This document shows positions 9,489 to 17,263 of a DNA stretch of 64,000 bases, in pieces. Numbering within the stretch: the stretch's first letter is position 1; each line of letters starts with the position of its first letter. Under the pieces are notes generated by a model that did no database searches, was not told the DNA's origin, and saw nothing but the letters and a program-made list of their open reading frames with translations. The stretch is from Anaerolineae bacterium (GTDB lineage Bacteria > Chloroflexota > Anaerolineae > Aggregatilineales > Phototrophicaceae). The stretch is from positions 1-64,000 of the forward strand of contig JAGWBD010000012.1 of the NCBI GenBank assembly GCA_021296065.1. The letters run 5' to 3'. The position numbers and the translations under genes were made by a program.

Positions 9489-10708
9489 GCGGCCCGCGCC
9501 GCGCCCTGATCGTTCTGCTGCTGCTGACCTGCGCCTGCCAGGCGATCGAGTTGCCGCTGCCAGCCAGTCCCGCGCCAACCCGCTCGCTGCCGACACCTGC
9601 GCCGGTGGCCGCTGCGCCGCTGCCAGCCGCCCGCAGCGACGCGGCTGTCGCTGACGACAACCTGCTGACCGCGCTCTACCAGCGCGTCGCGCCAGCCGTC
9701 GTCGCCATCTCCGTTTACGCGGCGCCGGAGGACAACGCAGGTCAGAAGCGCGGCTCCGGTTTCCTCATCGATGACCTGGGCCACGTCGTGACCAACGCGC
9801 ACGTCATCCGCGACGCCGCCCGCATCGAGCTGGTGTTTCACGACGGCCGCATCGCTCCGGCGACCCTGCGCGGCGCCGATGGCTACAGCGACCTGGCCCT
9901 GCTGCAGGTCGACGCGGCCGCCGTCGCCGGGTTGACTCCGTTGGCACTGGCCGACTCCAATACGCTGCGTCCCGGCCAGCGTATCATCGTCATCGGCAAT
10001 CCCTTCGGCCTGAGCAACTCGATTGCCCAGGGAATCATCGGCGCCACCGGACGACAGTTGCCGCCGGCCCTGCTGACGGACGCCGACTTGCCGCCCGATT
10101 TCAGCAACCCCGCCGTCCTCCAGCTGGACGCCCGCATCAACCCCGGCGATTCGGGTGGCCCCGTCCTCAATTCGGCTGGCGAGGTCATCGGCGTGGCCAC
10201 GGCCATTCGCAGCGCGACCGGCGCCCTTCAGGGGCCGGGCTTCGCCGTCCCGGCCAATACCCTGCGCCGCGTCGCGCCCGAACTCATTGAGCGCGGCAGC
10301 GTGCGCTACGCCTGGCTGGGGATTTCCACCCTGCGCGAAGAAGACGGCTTCAGCGTGGCCGCGCTGGTCGACGCCCTCGGCCTCACGACCAACAAGGGCG
10401 TGCTCATCGACCGCGTCCACGACGCTTCCCCGGCGCAACTGGCCGGCCTGCGCGGCGGCGCGGAGCGGGTCATGTTGCGGGGTGTGGAGGTCTGCGCAGG
10501 GGGCGACATCATCGTGGCCATCAACGGGCACTTTGTCAAAAACCTTGACGAGTTGCTCGCCTGGCTGGTCAGCTACGGCCACCCTGGCGACGAGGTGACC
10601 CTGCTCGTCGTGCGCGGCGCGGAAACGCTGGAACTGCCGCTGGCGTTGGGCGCGCGGCCACGGCCGGGCGATGGCCTGCCCCCCGCCGATTGCCCCGCCG
10701 GTCCATGA
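9485..10708 (+). CDS. HtrA/DegP-like S1C serine protease with PDZ domain
   Basis: A 407-residue envelope protease. A hydrophobic leader (about residues 6-16) ends in cysteines at 16 and 18, so it may be a lipoprotein or a secreted protein. The trypsin-like domain carries the triad His106 (VVTNAHVI), Asp136 (YSDLALL) and Ser223 (NPGDSGGPV). A PDZ domain follows from about residue 290 (GVLIDRVHDASPAQLAGL region). Members degrade or refold misfolded envelope proteins. The GTG start overlaps the stop of the DnaJ-like gene (GTGA) and the gene's own stop overlaps the next start (ATGA), so the chaperone and protease are probably made together. Confidence 0.93.
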   Translation: MSGPRRALIVLLLLTCACQAIELPLPASPAPTRSLPTPAPVAAAPLPAARSDAAVADDNLLTALYQRVAPAVVAISVYAAPEDNAGQKRGSGFLIDDLGHVVTNAHVIRDAARIELVFHDGRIAPATLRGADGYSDLALLQVDAAAVAGLTPLALADSNTLRPGQRIIVIGNPFGLSNSIAQGIIGATGRQLPPALLTDADLPPDFSNPAVLQLDARINPGDSGGPVLNSAGEVIGVATAIRSATGALQGPGFAVPANTLRRVAPELIERGSVRYAWLGISTLREEDGFSVAALVDALGLTTNKGVLIDRVHDASPAQLAGLRGGAERVMLRGVEVCAGGDIIVAINGHFVKNLDELLAWLVSYGHPGDEVTLLVVRGAETLELPLALGARPRPGDGLPPADCPAGP

Positions 10709-11253
10709 TCAACACCACGCTGGAAACGAAACGCCTTGTTCTGCGCCCGCTGCAAGCTGACGATGAGGCGGCCATCACGCGTTACGCCGGCGACCGGCGC
10801 ATCGCCGCCGGCAAACTGAGCATCCCCCACCCCCTGCCGCAGGACTGGACGCGGCGCTACATCCGCTATCACCTGCAGGCCATCGCCGCGCGCGAGGACT
10901 TCTGCCTGGCCCTGACGCGTCGACCGGAGCCAGGCCTCATCGGCGTGATCAACCTGTATCCACAATCCGAATCCATGGGCCAGGTCGGCTTCTGGACGGG
11001 CGTGCCCTGGTGGGGCAAGGGTTACATGACCGAGGCGCTGCGGGCTGTCCTCAGCTTCGCTTTCGAAGACCTTGCACTACAACGCGTGCACGCCTCCCAC
11101 TTCGGCACGAACCCCGCATCGGGCCGCGTCATGCAGAAGGCCGGCATGCGCCAGGAAGGACGCCTGCGGCAACACGTCCTGAAGGATGGCGTGCCGCAGG
11201 ACCTTGTCTGGCATGGCATGCTGCGCGAGGACTTCGAGAGCAACCATGCCTGA
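10705..11253 (+). CDS. GNAT-family N-acetyltransferase (RimJ/RimL-like), copy 1
   Basis: A 182-residue acetyltransferase. It opens with LETKRLVLRPLQADDE and has the long-branched RimJ/RimL layout, with VPWWGKGYMTEALRAVL around the acetyl-CoA binding turn and NPASGRVMQKAGMRQEG near the end. Such enzymes use acetyl-CoA to acetylate protein N-termini, antibiotics or small amines. I chose the ATG at 10705 because it overlaps the stop of the protease gene (ATGA); an upstream ATG at 10690 is inside that gene. Its close paralogue follows immediately. The substrate is unknown. Confidence 0.87.
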   Translation: MINTTLETKRLVLRPLQADDEAAITRYAGDRRIAAGKLSIPHPLPQDWTRRYIRYHLQAIAAREDFCLALTRRPEPGLIGVINLYPQSESMGQVGFWTGVPWWGKGYMTEALRAVLSFAFEDLALQRVHASHFGTNPASGRVMQKAGMRQEGRLRQHVLKDGVPQDLVWHGMLREDFESNHA

Positions 11254-11803
11254 GCTGCGGCGCCTGGAAACGAAGCGGCTGGTCCTGCGTCCCTTGCAAC
11301 TGGACGACGGGGCGACCATCGCCCGCCTCGCCGGCGACTGGCGCGTCGCATGGCCGATCCCCACCATTCCGCATCCCTACAGCCTGGGCAGGGCGCGCGA
11401 CTTCATTCGGGCTACGCGGCGCGGCGCGGCCGAAGGCAGCGAGGCCGTCTACGCCGTGACGCGCAAACCGGAACCGGCGCTCATCGGTATCATCAGCCTG
11501 CGCCCGCAGCAGGGCTTCATCGCGGAGACCGGTTACTGGATGGGCGTCGCCTATTGGGGGCAGGGATACATGACTGAAGCGCTGCGGGCCATCATCCGCC
11601 ACGCCTTCTGCGACCTGCATCTGCAGCGCATCTTCGCCTGGCATATCGGCCGCAACCCTGCTTCCGGCCGCGTCATGCAAAAGGCCGGCATGCGCCATGA
11701 AGCCCGTTTGCGCCAGCACGTCCTGCACCGTGGCGAGGTGGAGGACCAGGTCTACTACGGTCTGCTGCGCGATGAGTACCTGGACGCCGACGCGGGCTGC
11801 TAA
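11246..11803 (+). CDS. GNAT-family N-acetyltransferase (RimJ/RimL-like), copy 2
   Basis: A 185-residue paralogue of the preceding gene, sharing the opening LETKRLVLRPLQ and the block NPASGRVMQKAGMR almost exactly, so the pair arose by tandem duplication. The acetyl-CoA turn reads VAYWGQGYMTEALRAII. The ATG at 11246 overlaps the end of copy 1 by eight bases, consistent with coupled translation. It ends convergently with the NifU_N-like gene, overlapping by four bases. The two copies differ most in the first third after the opening motif, which could mean different substrates. Confidence 0.87.
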   Translation: MPELRRLETKRLVLRPLQLDDGATIARLAGDWRVAWPIPTIPHPYSLGRARDFIRATRRGAAEGSEAVYAVTRKPEPALIGIISLRPQQGFIAETGYWMGVAYWGQGYMTEALRAIIRHAFCDLHLQRIFAWHIGRNPASGRVMQKAGMRHEARLRQHVLHRGEVEDQVYYGLLRDEYLDADAGC

Positions 11804-12573: not shown

Positions 12574-13698
12574 TCAGGGGATGACGCGCCGGTTCAACAT
12601 GTCACTGACGCTTTTGACGAGACGGCGCAATTCCAGTTCCATTTCCTCGCTGATGCCTTCCAGAATGGCCGCCTCACGGAAATGCTCGCGCGCCGCGCGC
12701 AATTGCTCCTGCCCGCTGCGCAATTCACTGAGTCCCTGACAAAGCCGGTCGCGCGCATCGCGGCTGGCCACGCTGGCGTAGGCCTCCGGAAAGTCGCGTC
12801 CCAAAGCGGCGCCGGCCTCCTGCACCGCTTCCAGAAACTGGTCCACGGTCGCCAGTTCATGAGCGGCGCCGCGCTGCAGCAGCGAGCGGATTCCCGGGCT
12901 CAGGGTGGGCTCCACGCCGAAATCCAGCTCACGTATGTCACTGTAGCGGCCCTCGACGTCGTTAAGCGTGCCGGGCTGCGGTCGCAAGGAACCCTGCCGT
13001 GGCGACAGGCCGGTGAACACCGGATACAGGATGCCCACGCACAGGTTGTGGATGTCCGTGCGGATTTGCTGCGGGGCGTCGATCACGCTTTCCAGCTGGC
13101 GTGAACTGTTGAAATCAATGACCTGCAGCCGCGTGCCGTCCCAGTAGACGTGTTCCAGCTTGTGGTCCAGGTAGACAATGTCCTGCTGATGCGCCAGACG
13201 TAGCATACTGGCAAATTGCAACGCCAGCGCGATGCCTTCCTCACTGGGCAGGCGTCGACGACTGCCCGACTGGTTGGGCTTCATCAGATAGAGCAGATTG
13301 CGCGTACGCGGCAGGTTGCGCAGCGCCAGCCAGGGACGCCAGCGCTTGTGCGAACGTTCCTCCAGCGCATCGACGAAAGCCTCGACGTTCAGGCCATGCG
13401 CGACGATTTCGCCACGATGCGGCTGATCGCCGTCGCTGTCGATGAAACCGCAATCCAGCAGGTCGACCGCCTGCGGGCTCTCGGCCAGCTTTTGCAGAAT
13501 CTGTGCCTCGTTGCCGAAGGCGCGGTACTCCCAGCGCGGGCGACCGTCGGGCGCCAGATGCTCGTTGCGCATCACCTTGAAGGCCACCGTCTCACCCGTC
13601 AGATGATTGCCGGCGTCCATGACGCGCGCGTAATGGCCGAGAGCAAAGGTGTCGATGAAATTGCCGATTCGATAGCGTGCCGTCAGCGATTCGCTCAT
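12574..13698 (-). CDS. Protein-kinase-like protein with diverged catalytic loops
   Basis: A 374-residue protein with a eukaryotic-type kinase fold: Lys41 in VAFKVM, a catalytic-loop equivalent VYLDHKLEHVYW (Asp178, Lys180) and a metal loop VIDFN (Asp195). HRD has become LDH, the usual asparagine of that loop is histidine, and DFG is DFN, so activity is uncertain though the key lysine and aspartates remain. The C-terminal 90 residues are predicted mostly helical and charged. No membrane segment is seen. It is divergent from the giant PBP-like gene at 13814, sharing the 115-base intergenic region. Confidence 0.7.
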   Translation of the reverse strand: MSESLTARYRIGNFIDTFALGHYARVMDAGNHLTGETVAFKVMRNEHLAPDGRPRWEYRAFGNEAQILQKLAESPQAVDLLDCGFIDSDGDQPHRGEIVAHGLNVEAFVDALEERSHKRWRPWLALRNLPRTRNLLYLMKPNQSGSRRRLPSEEGIALALQFASMLRLAHQQDIVYLDHKLEHVYWDGTRLQVIDFNSSRQLESVIDAPQQIRTDIHNLCVGILYPVFTGLSPRQGSLRPQPGTLNDVEGRYSDIRELDFGVEPTLSPGIRSLLQRGAAHELATVDQFLEAVQEAGAALGRDFPEAYASVASRDARDRLCQGLSELRSGQEQLRAAREHFREAAILEGISEEMELELRRLVKSVSDMLNRRVIP

Positions 13699-13751: not shown

Positions 13752-13781
13752 TTGCAATTTGGCCCCTTCCGGGCTTAAAAT
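13752..13781 (+). promoter_or_regulatory. Candidate promoter for the PBP-like gene
   Basis: TTGCAA (13752-13757), an 18-base spacer, and TAAAAT (13776-13781) lie 33 bases before the ATG at 13814. An AAAGGA stretch follows but is rather far (about 18 bases) from the ATG. Confidence 0.4.
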
Positions 13782-13813: not shown

Positions 13814-16800
13814 ATGCCCAACGAGAAAAACCCGGACGACGGCGCTTCCCGTCCCGACGGGGATGAACCCGCCAGCGCGCCGCGCCCCGAAGACACGCTC
13901 CCCGCCAGCGGTCCCGAGCCGCCCGCGTCGCCAGGCCCTGACGCCGGCGTCGAGGAACTGACCGCGCTGGTCGACGCCCTGGGCGACCCGGCTTCGCCTG
14001 CGGCGGATCTGCCCGCCCCGGAGGACACCCTGCCCGACTTGCCGGCATCGCTGCCGGAAGAAGACGACGCGTCGCCACATCCCGAAGGGGACGACGAACG
14101 CGCCGCCCGTTTTCGCGCCACCGAAGCCGAAGTGCGCAGCCTGCGTCAACGCAAACGTGATGGCCTGATCACGCAGGAGCAACTGCTGGAAGAGTTGCGG
14201 CGTCACATGATCGAGGATGAAGGCGTCTGGTGGATGCTGGGCGTCGAAACCGACACCTGGTACCGCTACGACGAGGTCGCCGGTGGCTGGGTCATTGCCT
14301 CGCCGCCGGCCCATGCGGGCGTTTCCCCTGGCAGCAGCATCGACATCCAGGAGGGTCTGGCCGGACCGGAAGAGACCCTGTCCGGCGCCATGCCGCCCGG
14401 CTTCGCACTTGAAGAGGAAGAGTTGCCGCGCACCGACACGCCGCTCTACGACGAAGAGGCGACCATCCCCGGCATGGCGGCCATCCACCAGGGCACGCTG
14501 CGCCTCAGCGAGGAAGAAGCGCCCCGGGCCAGCGTCCTCGCCGTCACCCGACCGGCGCAGCAACTGCGTGAGCGGCAGGCGCCGCGCACGCTGGTGCCGC
14601 CACCCCGCCCTGCCCCCGCCACGGCGCCTGGCCGCAACCTGCTGCCGCAACGCCTTTTGCTGCTGGCGGTACTGCTCGGCGGGGCCTTTCTGGTGCTCAT
14701 CGCGTTGACGGGGCTGGTCGTCCTGTTGCGCTACAACAGCATCGTCGGGCGTTACAGCGAGGAAATCGACGCGCTGGCCCAGGCGCAAACCGCCTTTCAG
14801 AGCCTGCGCATCCTTGATGGCAACGGTGAACTGCTGGCCGAACGTGACAGCGAGGACGGTCGGCGCGAGCCACGCGCCCTCGCTGATATCTCGCCATGGC
14901 TGATCGCGGCCGTCATCGGCGCGCAGGAGCCACAATTCTATGGCAGTTCCGATTTCAACCTGCCGCGCATCGCCAGCGACCTTTTCGGCAGCGCGCCCGG
15001 CGCGCCCGTCACCATCGCCCGGCGCCTGGCTGATCTGAGCATTCGCAATGAGGGCGTGGGCGCCGCTGCCCAGGCGCGACACCGCAACGTCGTCGCTGCC
15101 GAGCTGGCCCGCCGTTACGACCGCAACACCCTGCTTGAACGCTACCTGAACAAGGCCGAATTTGGCCCGCGCGTCTTCGGCGCCCAGGCGGCTGCCAAAT
15201 TCTGGTTCGGGCTGGACGCGAGCCAGTTACAGCCGGTCGAGTCGGCCCTGCTGGTCAGTTTTCTGACCCACCCGGGCGTCACGCCACTGGACGCGGCGAC
15301 GCGCGACGAGGCTTTCGTCAACGCCGACGCGCTGCTGCGCGATCTGGCCGGCTTGCACTGCCTCAACCTGCAACACGAGTCGACTCACCCGGATTTCGCG
15401 ACGCCTTTCTGCGCCCACCGCCAGCAGATCCTCGACGACCAGGGCAACTTCAGTCCCACCGTTAACCTGCAACGCGCCACCCTCGGCACGCGCGATTTCG
15501 CCGCGCCGGCCGCAGAGGCCGCCTGGCCGCACTTCAGCGCCCATGTCGTCGCCGAATTGCGCGCGCTTTACGGCGAGGACGCCTTCCGTAGCGGGGCAAC
15601 CGTTCACACGACGCTCGACCCGGTCATCCAGCAGGTCGCCGCCGACGCCCTGCGCGACCAGTTGCGCTCCAGCGCCATGAACCGCAACGTGCAGACCGGC
15701 GCGGTCAGCGTGGTGGACCCCGCCAGCGGCGGGTTGCTGGCCCTGGTCGGCGGAGACGGCGACCCGCAGACCATTCCCGGTTTCCAGGCGCCGGACGCAG
15801 CCCTCATGCCCCTGCTCTACGCCGCCGCGCTGGAAGGTGTCGGCGACCGCAACGGCAACGGTCAGCTGGACCATGAAGAGTACCTGACGGCGGCTTCCAT
15901 TCTCTGGGACGTGCCGGGCCAGGCGCCCAATCCCTTCTTCCCGCCCCTGCCGCACGCCAACCTGACCCGCGGCCCGGTCTCCCTGCGCAGCGCGCTGGCC
16001 AACGCCCTCAACATCCCCGCCGCGCGAGTCTGGGACTTCGTGACCCGTGAACGCTTTCTGGAAACGGCCGCCCGCCTCGGCCTGAAGACCTTTCAGACCG
16101 CGAGCGGTGAAGGCCTCGGCGACACGCCTGGCGAGACCGGCGTGCTGCTGCCGGAACTGATGCAGGCTTACAGCACGCTCGCCAATTACGGCCGCTTCCA
16201 GCCCCTGAGCGCCATCCGCGCCGTGACCCTGGCTGATGGCAGTGAAGTGCCGCGCGTGAACGCGCCTGACAGCGGCGACGTGCTGCACCCCGGAATCGCG
16301 CTGCTCGTCGGCAACCTGATGGCGGAGGACAGTGGCCGCAGCATCATCGGCGAGGACAGCCCCCTCAACCTGCCCGGTCACGAGGGCGCCATCGCCGCCA
16401 TCGCCAACACCACCCTCGGCTCGCGCGATCTCTGGGCCATGGGCTACAGCAACAACCTCGTCGTGGGCGTCTGGCTGGGCCGCCACGATGACCAGCCGAC
16501 CGCTTCCAGCGGCCTGCTGGAGGCCGCGCCGGTCTTCCGCCGCGTCATGCAGGCGGCCTTGCAGGGACGGCCGCAACCCACCCGCTTCTCCGGCGCGCAG
16601 GCCACGCTGGCGCTGGCGCCGGTCTGTCGCCTGAGCGGCGCCCTGCCGGATGCCAGCTGCCCGGGCGGACAACGCGACGAACTCTTCGTGCCGGGCTACC
16701 CGCCACCACCACCGGATCAGGGAGTCATCGTGTCACGCACGATTGACACCTGGAGCGGTCTGCTGGCCAATGAGTTTTGTCCGGAATTCCACAGCGAGCA

Positions 16801-17263
16801 GACCTTCCTGCGCCTGGAAGCGGAAGATCCGCTGATCACGGCCTGGCTGGGTTCGGCGGCCGGCCAAAACTTCCTGAGCGTCAACGGCCTTTCCGGCCTG
16901 CCCGCCAGCACAACACCAGGCGCCTCCTGCGATGTCTCCACGCGCCAGCCGACGCTGGAGTTACTCAACCCGCCCCACAACTCGGTCGTGCAGGGCAGCA
17001 TCACGGTCACCGGCACGGTGGCCGCGCAAAACATGGAACGATTCGAGCTTTCACTGGTCACGACCCGCGGCGCGCTGATCCAGCAGCTGGGCAACTGGGA
17101 GCAGCAGCGACCGGGCCAGGGCGAATCGCTGGTGGAATGGAACACGGCTGCCGTGCCCGATGGTCAGTACCTGCTGCGCCTGATCGCCCGCTCCATCGGC
17201 GGCGGCTACGCGCAGCGCGAGGCCTTCGTCGTTATCAGCAATGCCGCCGCGGCCGGCGGCTGA
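13814..17263 (+). CDS. Class A penicillin-binding-protein homologue with degenerate active sites
   Basis: A 1149-residue membrane-anchored protein. Order: acidic/proline-rich cytoplasmic region (1-100), a small domain around WWMLGVETDTWYRYD (about 110-165), a single membrane helix (279-306), a GT51 glycosyltransferase-like domain (about 350-500), a transpeptidase-like domain (about 600-930) and a C-terminal beta-sandwich (NPPHNSVVQGSITVTG onward). Many structural motifs align with PBP1a, e.g. LLERYLNKAEFG. The catalytic ones do not: the GT51 glutamate is Gln371 (IGAQEPQFY), the transpeptidase SxxK region reads DAALMP (661-666), SxN is ALN (731-733) and KTG is IAN. It may be a scaffold or regulator rather than a wall synthase. 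ATG 13814 is the first plausible start after a promoter. Confidence 0.82.
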   Translation: MPNEKNPDDGASRPDGDEPASAPRPEDTLPASGPEPPASPGPDAGVEELTALVDALGDPASPAADLPAPEDTLPDLPASLPEEDDASPHPEGDDERAARFRATEAEVRSLRQRKRDGLITQEQLLEELRRHMIEDEGVWWMLGVETDTWYRYDEVAGGWVIASPPAHAGVSPGSSIDIQEGLAGPEETLSGAMPPGFALEEEELPRTDTPLYDEEATIPGMAAIHQGTLRLSEEEAPRASVLAVTRPAQQLRERQAPRTLVPPPRPAPATAPGRNLLPQRLLLLAVLLGGAFLVLIALTGLVVLLRYNSIVGRYSEEIDALAQAQTAFQSLRILDGNGELLAERDSEDGRREPRALADISPWLIAAVIGAQEPQFYGSSDFNLPRIASDLFGSAPGAPVTIARRLADLSIRNEGVGAAAQARHRNVVAAELARRYDRNTLLERYLNKAEFGPRVFGAQAAAKFWFGLDASQLQPVESALLVSFLTHPGVTPLDAATRDEAFVNADALLRDLAGLHCLNLQHESTHPDFATPFCAHRQQILDDQGNFSPTVNLQRATLGTRDFAAPAAEAAWPHFSAHVVAELRALYGEDAFRSGATVHTTLDPVIQQVAADALRDQLRSSAMNRNVQTGAVSVVDPASGGLLALVGGDGDPQTIPGFQAPDAALMPLLYAAALEGVGDRNGNGQLDHEEYLTAASILWDVPGQAPNPFFPPLPHANLTRGPVSLRSALANALNIPAARVWDFVTRERFLETAARLGLKTFQTASGEGLGDTPGETGVLLPELMQAYSTLANYGRFQPLSAIRAVTLADGSEVPRVNAPDSGDVLHPGIALLVGNLMAEDSGRSIIGEDSPLNLPGHEGAIAAIANTTLGSRDLWAMGYSNNLVVGVWLGRHDDQPTASSGLLEAAPVFRRVMQAALQGRPQPTRFSGAQATLALAPVCRLSGALPDASCPGGQRDELFVPGYPPPPPDQGVIVSRTIDTWSGLLANEFCPEFHSEQTFLRLEAEDPLITAWLGSAAGQNFLSVNGLSGLPASTTPGASCDVSTRQPTLELLNPPHNSVVQGSITVTGTVAAQNMERFELSLVTTRGALIQQLGNWEQQRPGQGESLVEWNTAAVPDGQYLLRLIARSIGGGYAQREAFVVISNAAAAGG

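Follow-up and report, generated by a model that had tools for sequence, protein, structure and literature searches.

Class A penicillin-binding proteins (PBPs) such as PBP1a, PBP1b, and PonA1 are the closest described counterparts of the protein considered here, which shares with them the domain order, the fold, and a membrane helix that precedes the enzymatic part. It differs from them in that key residues are replaced in both the glycosyltransferase (GT) and the transpeptidase (TP) domains, and in that it carries an additional cytoplasmic domain and an additional C-terminal β domain. BlaR1 and MecR1 use a PBP-like fold to sense rather than to build the wall and keep the nucleophile serine, which becomes acylated; the present protein, unlike these two, lacks this serine. 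PBP2B of Bacillus subtilis is a class B PBP and is naturally active. When inactivated by mutation, it still fulfills a structural role without catalysis (PMC5656894), whereas the present protein is of class A and appears to be inactive by nature, in both domains. In mycobacterial PonA1, a class A PBP, the cytoplasmic region is phosphorylated and has a bearing on wall synthesis; PonA1 is, however, catalytic and its activities are needed (PMC4483258), while for the present protein phosphorylation is only suggested by the neighboring genes. A literature search covering titles and abstract openings, with few subscription journals and preprints among them, returned no paper on class A PBPs that are inactive by nature in Chloroflexota.

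In the window, i.e., the whole 64,000-nucleotide stretch of DNA analyzed here, the gene occupies positions 13814–17263 of the plus strand as an open frame that translates into 1149 residues plus a stop (protein P0001, one of the 114 distinct orthologue frames discussed below). An ATG further upstream, at 13697, would give a protein of 1188 residues. From the sequence, 13814 is the likelier start, because the divergent neighboring gene starts at 13698 and positions 13752–13781 contain a weak promoter-like site. A chance or misframed reading is rejected on the basis of G001 and G002, which represent the two remaining species of the genus and whose proteins are 88% identical over all 1149 residues, and the frame contains no stop in any of the three species.

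A class A PBP fold is well supported by the AlphaFold2 model, which was predicted with 51 window and orthologue sequences as input and has a mean pLDDT of 79.8 and a pTM of 0.67. The top match among the chains realigned with VIA is PBP1a (4oon, Z 35.9, rmsd 2.9, 374 residues aligned), and further class A PBPs come next, the PonA1 chains having Z values of 32.5–33.0. The domain order is that of class A PBPs as well, with one membrane helix, then a GT51 domain, then a transpeptidase domain. At the profile level, Pfam Transgly matches residues 338–493 (E 1.8e-18), the NCBIfam PBP_1c and PBP_1a profiles span residues 350–974 with scores far under their cut-offs, and no Pfam Transpeptidase match is obtained in the 1149-residue protein at E ≤ 1. 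The membrane helix (residues 277–313, positions 14642–14752), assigned from the model and the hydrophobic sequence, leads into the pseudo-glycosyltransferase domain (residues 338–495, 14825–15298) and the pseudo-transpeptidase domain (residues 591–930, 15584–16603). These are followed by a region with conserved cysteines at 938, 949, 989, and 1039 (residues 931–1040, 16604–16933) and by a C-terminal β domain (residues 1041–1149, 16934–17260), which is Ig-like according to the model and a weak Pfam Big_7 match. All of these parts are encoded on the plus strand.

The extra cytoplasmic domain that the initial annotation had mentioned is real. It covers residues 93–165 (14090–14308, plus strand) and is predicted, with a pLDDT of about 90 as part of the complete model and of 91 if modeled by itself, as a helical hairpin and a small four-strand sheet bearing a WWM...WYR...W motif. 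The hairpin is weakly SHOCT-like. With a Pfam score of 13.6 bits, where 27 is the cut-off, it does not qualify as a SHOCT domain, and weak SHOCT matches are seen in 11 of 20 orthologue cytoplasmic domains. No convincing fold match was found in the PDB (lowest E with Foldseek 0.58; highest Z with VIA 4.8), nor was a second copy found in the organism's own genome. This stretch (14084–14311, plus strand), confidently predicted and without a convincing Pfam or PDB match, is possibly an undescribed domain of Chloroflexota.

The catalytic columns were set by a phmmer alignment to the solved PBP1A structure 4oon and by a MAFFT alignment to the orthologues. The two give the same residues at these columns, and the possibility that the catalytic residues are hidden elsewhere was rejected on this ground. 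In both, the GT51 catalytic glutamate of the first GT motif is replaced by Q371 (14924–14926), which is followed by E372, SxxK is replaced by A662-A-L-M665 (15797–15808), and KTG by I863-A-N865 (16400–16408). The orthologue alignments further show A731-L-N733 (16004–16012) in place of SxN and R424 (15083–15085) in place of the glutamate of RKxxE, the Lys column of the latter being occupied by A421. The TQQ motif has become A402-R-R, with R403 reported at the column of the first Gln. All these codons lie on the plus strand. The initial annotation had listed Gln371, DAALMP, ALN, and the loss of the KTG lysine, all correctly, and the loss of the second GT glutamate (R424) is to be added to them. 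The protein accordingly has neither the two GT51 catalytic glutamates nor the SxxK, SxN, and KTG motifs of a class A PBP enzyme, and G001 and G002 show identical losses, so that 3/3 species of the genus are affected. Judged by these residues, the GT and TP sites are both dead, which bears out the earlier description of a class A PBP homologue with two inactive sites, and the protein should neither polymerize glycan nor bind penicillin covalently.

It is very improbable that catalysis survives through other residues in a rebuilt site. The fold and the framework of the cleft are kept by prediction, which would allow for this, but the nucleophile, both TP lysines, the SxN serine, and both GT glutamates have given way to Ala, Met, Ile, Gln, and Arg. 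Moreover, the residue at the nucleophile position varies between the inactive lineages (Ala, Asp, Gly, or Thr), and such variable replacement is unlike a rebuilt site.

Orthologues of the protein were matched below E 1e-70 in 93 of the 98 genomes of the family. After 68 duplicates were dropped from the 182 loci, 114 distinct frames were read and scored for seven residues, namely the two GT glutamates, the Ser and Lys of SxxK, the Ser and Asn of SxN, and the Lys of KTG. All seven are retained in 93 frames and losses are seen in 17, while the other 4, fragments that do not include the GT part, retain all five TP residues. Of the 114 rows, 16 lack the nucleophile serine. The column of the first GT glutamate is covered by 110 rows, 9 of which have lost this residue; the usual form of the first GT motif in this lineage is EN and not ED (87 of 114 rows). 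The weaker rows among the 17 are L067, L073, and L078, with partial losses (the first two on short contigs), and L193, which is a fragment. Two genomes, G042 (L057, L078) and G045 (L067, L148), each hold two copies of this PBP, one intact and one with altered catalytic residues. A further PBP contig, L064, is of the Chloroflexota kind and is found in a record titled Bacteroidetes bacterium, which is probably mislabelled or a mixed bin.

On a quick IQ-TREE tree (LG+G4) of the 114 rows, with the catalytic columns blanked, the inactive state of the 17 rows needs 7 changes. Stricter rules give 6 changes each for a nucleophile that is not Ser, for one that is not Ser or Thr, and for the first GT glutamate, as well as 5 (both) and 4 (Ser and Lys both lost). 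Forcing the 17 inactive rows into one clade costs 742 log-likelihood units (AU p 5.5e-7), on which ground one ancient dead paralogue is rejected in favor of repeated loss, with the caveats that the 17-row group was named after the sequences were seen and that the tree is a quick one. The window genus joins its sister genus g9 (L016 and L045) with an SH-aLRT of 98. The g9 proteins are only about 40% identical, yet their frames are open over the full length and they also miss the nucleophile; the loss of catalysis probably arose in the ancestor of the two genera. The join may reflect a long-branch effect, because the stem of the window genus is long (1.11). Habitat was considered as the sole cause of the losses and rejected: the large genus g18, some bins of which share COS/RHO prefixes with the window genus, has intact motifs in the rows read. 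These bin names would permit no more than a guess at a sponge origin, and they do not occur in the passages of PMC8163846 searched for them.

These results qualify the initial annotation, which had raised the question of shared losses and had taken standard motifs in orthologues as a refutation of its reading. The losses are indeed common to the three species of the genus and extend, for the nucleophile, to g9, but 93 of the 114 orthologues are standard. We do not consider non-catalysis refuted here by such orthologues, since the losses have arisen repeatedly, each in particular lineages, and since the nucleophile is also gone in g9.

The calculated dN/dS ratios (Nei–Gojobori, three species pairs within the genus) are 0.21, 0.21, and 0.27 for the whole gene, the intact class A PBP gene of the same species (C30-type, see below) having 0.15–0.19. 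By domain, they are 0.08–0.12 for the cytoplasmic, 0.12–0.26 for the GT, and 0.16–0.19 for the TP domain. Region 931–1040, at 0.26–0.36, belongs to the parts that evolve faster in the genus, although its long-conserved positions are kept. No other large domain is as well conserved within the genus as the TP domain (92–96% identity), whose dN/dS values show that, although dead, it is still constrained. The earlier suggestion that selection keeps the frame is supported, and the protein presents what is expected of a pseudoenzyme, namely catalytic residues lost within an otherwise preserved fold and a gene under purifying selection.

The constraint is unevenly distributed. Of the positions that are at least 90% conserved among the orthologues scored intact, the cytoplasmic and C-terminal parts keep 35/38 vs 86/141 for the GT and TP domains (Fisher p 1.5e-4, a test that omits the membrane-linker, with 2/3 kept, the GT-TP linker, with 8/12 kept, and conserved positions outside the named regions). 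The individual values are 11/11 for the cytoplasmic domain, 2/2 for its tail, 13/14 and 9/11 for the two C-terminal regions, 28/56 for GT, and 58/85 for TP. Two fast-evolving intact orthologues keep far more of the GT and TP positions (L029: 52/56 and 76/85, 128/141 combined; L038: 49/56 and 79/84), and evolutionary speed alone therefore does not explain the losses. A slow decay, in which a gene whose catalysis is no longer needed still awaits its loss, would agree with the many conserved GT positions that are gone, with the long stem branch, for which a phase of relaxed constraint would account as well, and with genomes of 2.8–3.3 Mb, smaller than most relatives. We consider it improbable nevertheless, in view of a dN/dS of about 0.2 and the stop-free frame in 3/3 species, of the intact frame in g9, where the nucleophile is also missing, and of the cytoplasmic domain, in which no conserved position has been lost.

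The other class A PBPs of these genomes provide a useful comparison. There are three GT51 genes in the window genome, in G001, and in G002 and four in two g9 genomes; the types are named here by contig. The C30-type is present in 92 of the 98 family genomes (E 1e-150) and has all 13 scored motif residues intact in 34/34 copies read, and each of the three species of the genus encodes it together with three FtsW/RodA genes. The initial annotation's question of whether the genome holds another intact class A PBP is thus answered in the affirmative. The C2-type (L011:2237–5011, minus strand, contig C2 of G000; further members L215–L244) is a lineage that, in family f1, lacks the SxxK Ser and Lys, the SxN Ser, and the KTG Lys in 35/35 copies read, keeps the two GT glutamates in 35/35 and 34/35, and has its substituted TP motifs conserved in a new form. 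In family f4, 3/3 copies are TP-dead with different replacing residues, while all 13 residues are intact in the 14/14 loci of other families of the order; 3 duplicate loci were dropped from these counts and L260 was tallied apart. The latter is dead and of the same kind as the C2-type genes of f1, but it was found in G141 of family f8, a genome that also has an intact copy, L261; this points to transfer or contamination. A further type of about 850 residues is intact in four genomes outside the genus (L200, L203, L208, and L211) and is not among the three GT51 genes of any genome of the genus. By their motif residues, two of the three class A PBPs in the genus are TP-dead, one GT51 gene per genome being intact. 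PF00905 matches occur in five genes of the genome, one of them the C30-type gene, and together with the three FtsW/RodA genes they indicate that wall synthesis itself is encoded. The "poorly understood" wall of the initial annotation is therefore a loose description, as the genome encodes an intact class A PBP along with three FtsW/RodA-type proteins and several transpeptidases.

The gene next to the PBP gene, at 12574–13698 on the minus strand, is divergent and encodes a single-copy protein-kinase-like protein with a weak Pfam Pkinase match (28.7 bits, under the cut-off of 31.7). It has one match each in 96 of the 98 family genomes, with 54–66% identity outside the genus. Its catalytic loop is unusual, LDHKLEH, the usual kinase loop being HRDLKPEN, and it has DFN for DFG. 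The distance to the PBP gene is 119 bases in all three species of the genus. Among the 60 genomes compared, a count that leaves out genus g18, the two genes are within 10 kb in 18, far apart on one contig in 5, and on different contigs or without a kinase match in 37. The two are separated by a PP2C phosphatase gene (Pfam PP2C_2, 72.6 bits) in L046, and likewise in G010, which has a dead PBP and where the kinase-like gene is about 3 kb away. A PP2C gene is found upstream of 14 of the 69 orthologues having at least 1.5 kb of upstream sequence; the L046 protein has no match in the three genomes of the genus (E 1e-5). This neighborhood suggests a phospho-signaling context. Upstream of the kinase-like gene, two similar tandem frames (10690–11253 and 11186–11803, plus strand) are GNAT-type acetyltransferase-like by eye.

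The main rival to the reading that we prefer below is a sensor, in which the dead GT and TP clefts would bind lipid II, glycan strands, or muropeptides noncovalently and signal via the membrane helix. We regard this as rather unlikely, and likewise that the signal would reach the cytoplasmic domain and the kinase-like protein as well as, outside the genus, PP2C. The high conservation of the dead TP domain within the genus speaks for ligand sensing, as do the kinase-like and PP2C genes adjoining several orthologues and the parallel dead C2-type lineage, with its new conserved form of the TP motifs and both GT glutamates kept. However, no more than 28/56 conserved GT positions remain here, and PP2C has been lost from the genus.

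We consider it reasonably probable that a class A PBP has here become a pseudoenzyme, retained for a non-catalytic task, most likely that of a scaffold or regulator. The whole class A architecture, from the cytoplasmic domain through the membrane helix, the GT51 fold, and the transpeptidase fold to the C-terminal β domain, appears to be kept, and the protein would act as a bitopic scaffold or regulator, whose conserved cytoplasmic WWM/WYR domain and conserved extracellular surfaces would hold or tune wall machinery that is still catalytic. Non-catalysis itself, the role, the partners, and the signaling are what we infer. The C30-type class A PBP, which is intact, would be served in this way together with the FtsW/RodA enzymes, and input may come from the adjacent kinase-like protein, the connection with this gene and with the PP2C gene being a possible one. 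Such a mechanism is plausible because of the precedents of PBP2B (PMC5656894) and PonA1 (PMC4483258). Counting against the scaffold are the dN/dS of region 931–1040, the long stem branch of the genus, the proximity of the kinase-like gene in no more than 18/60 genomes, the absence of PP2C from the genus, and the cytoplasmic domain's want of a convincing fold match.

More tentatively, and with somewhat less confidence than for the protein itself, we propose that class A PBPs of this order have turned into pseudoenzymes recurrently, with about 4–7 independent losses, depending on the rule, in the lineage of the present protein and two in the second lineage (the whole family; f4). The dead proteins might form a regulatory layer that senses or organizes wall synthesis, wired via the WWM/WYR domain to the kinase-like protein and the PP2C phosphatase, with one always-intact class A PBP left for the chemistry. 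Earlier evidence for structural roles of PBPs comes from engineered mutants, such as inactive PBP2B, while here the inactivation is natural and has occurred several times. Counts of PBP genes by domain matches overestimate the number of penicillin targets, since only one of the three GT51 genes per genome of the genus is intact. With dead class A PBPs beside live sister lineages and a control enzyme intact in every copy read, a non-catalytic job of class A PBPs becomes directly testable, and the cytoplasmic domain and the kinase-like/PP2C neighborhood are the places to look.
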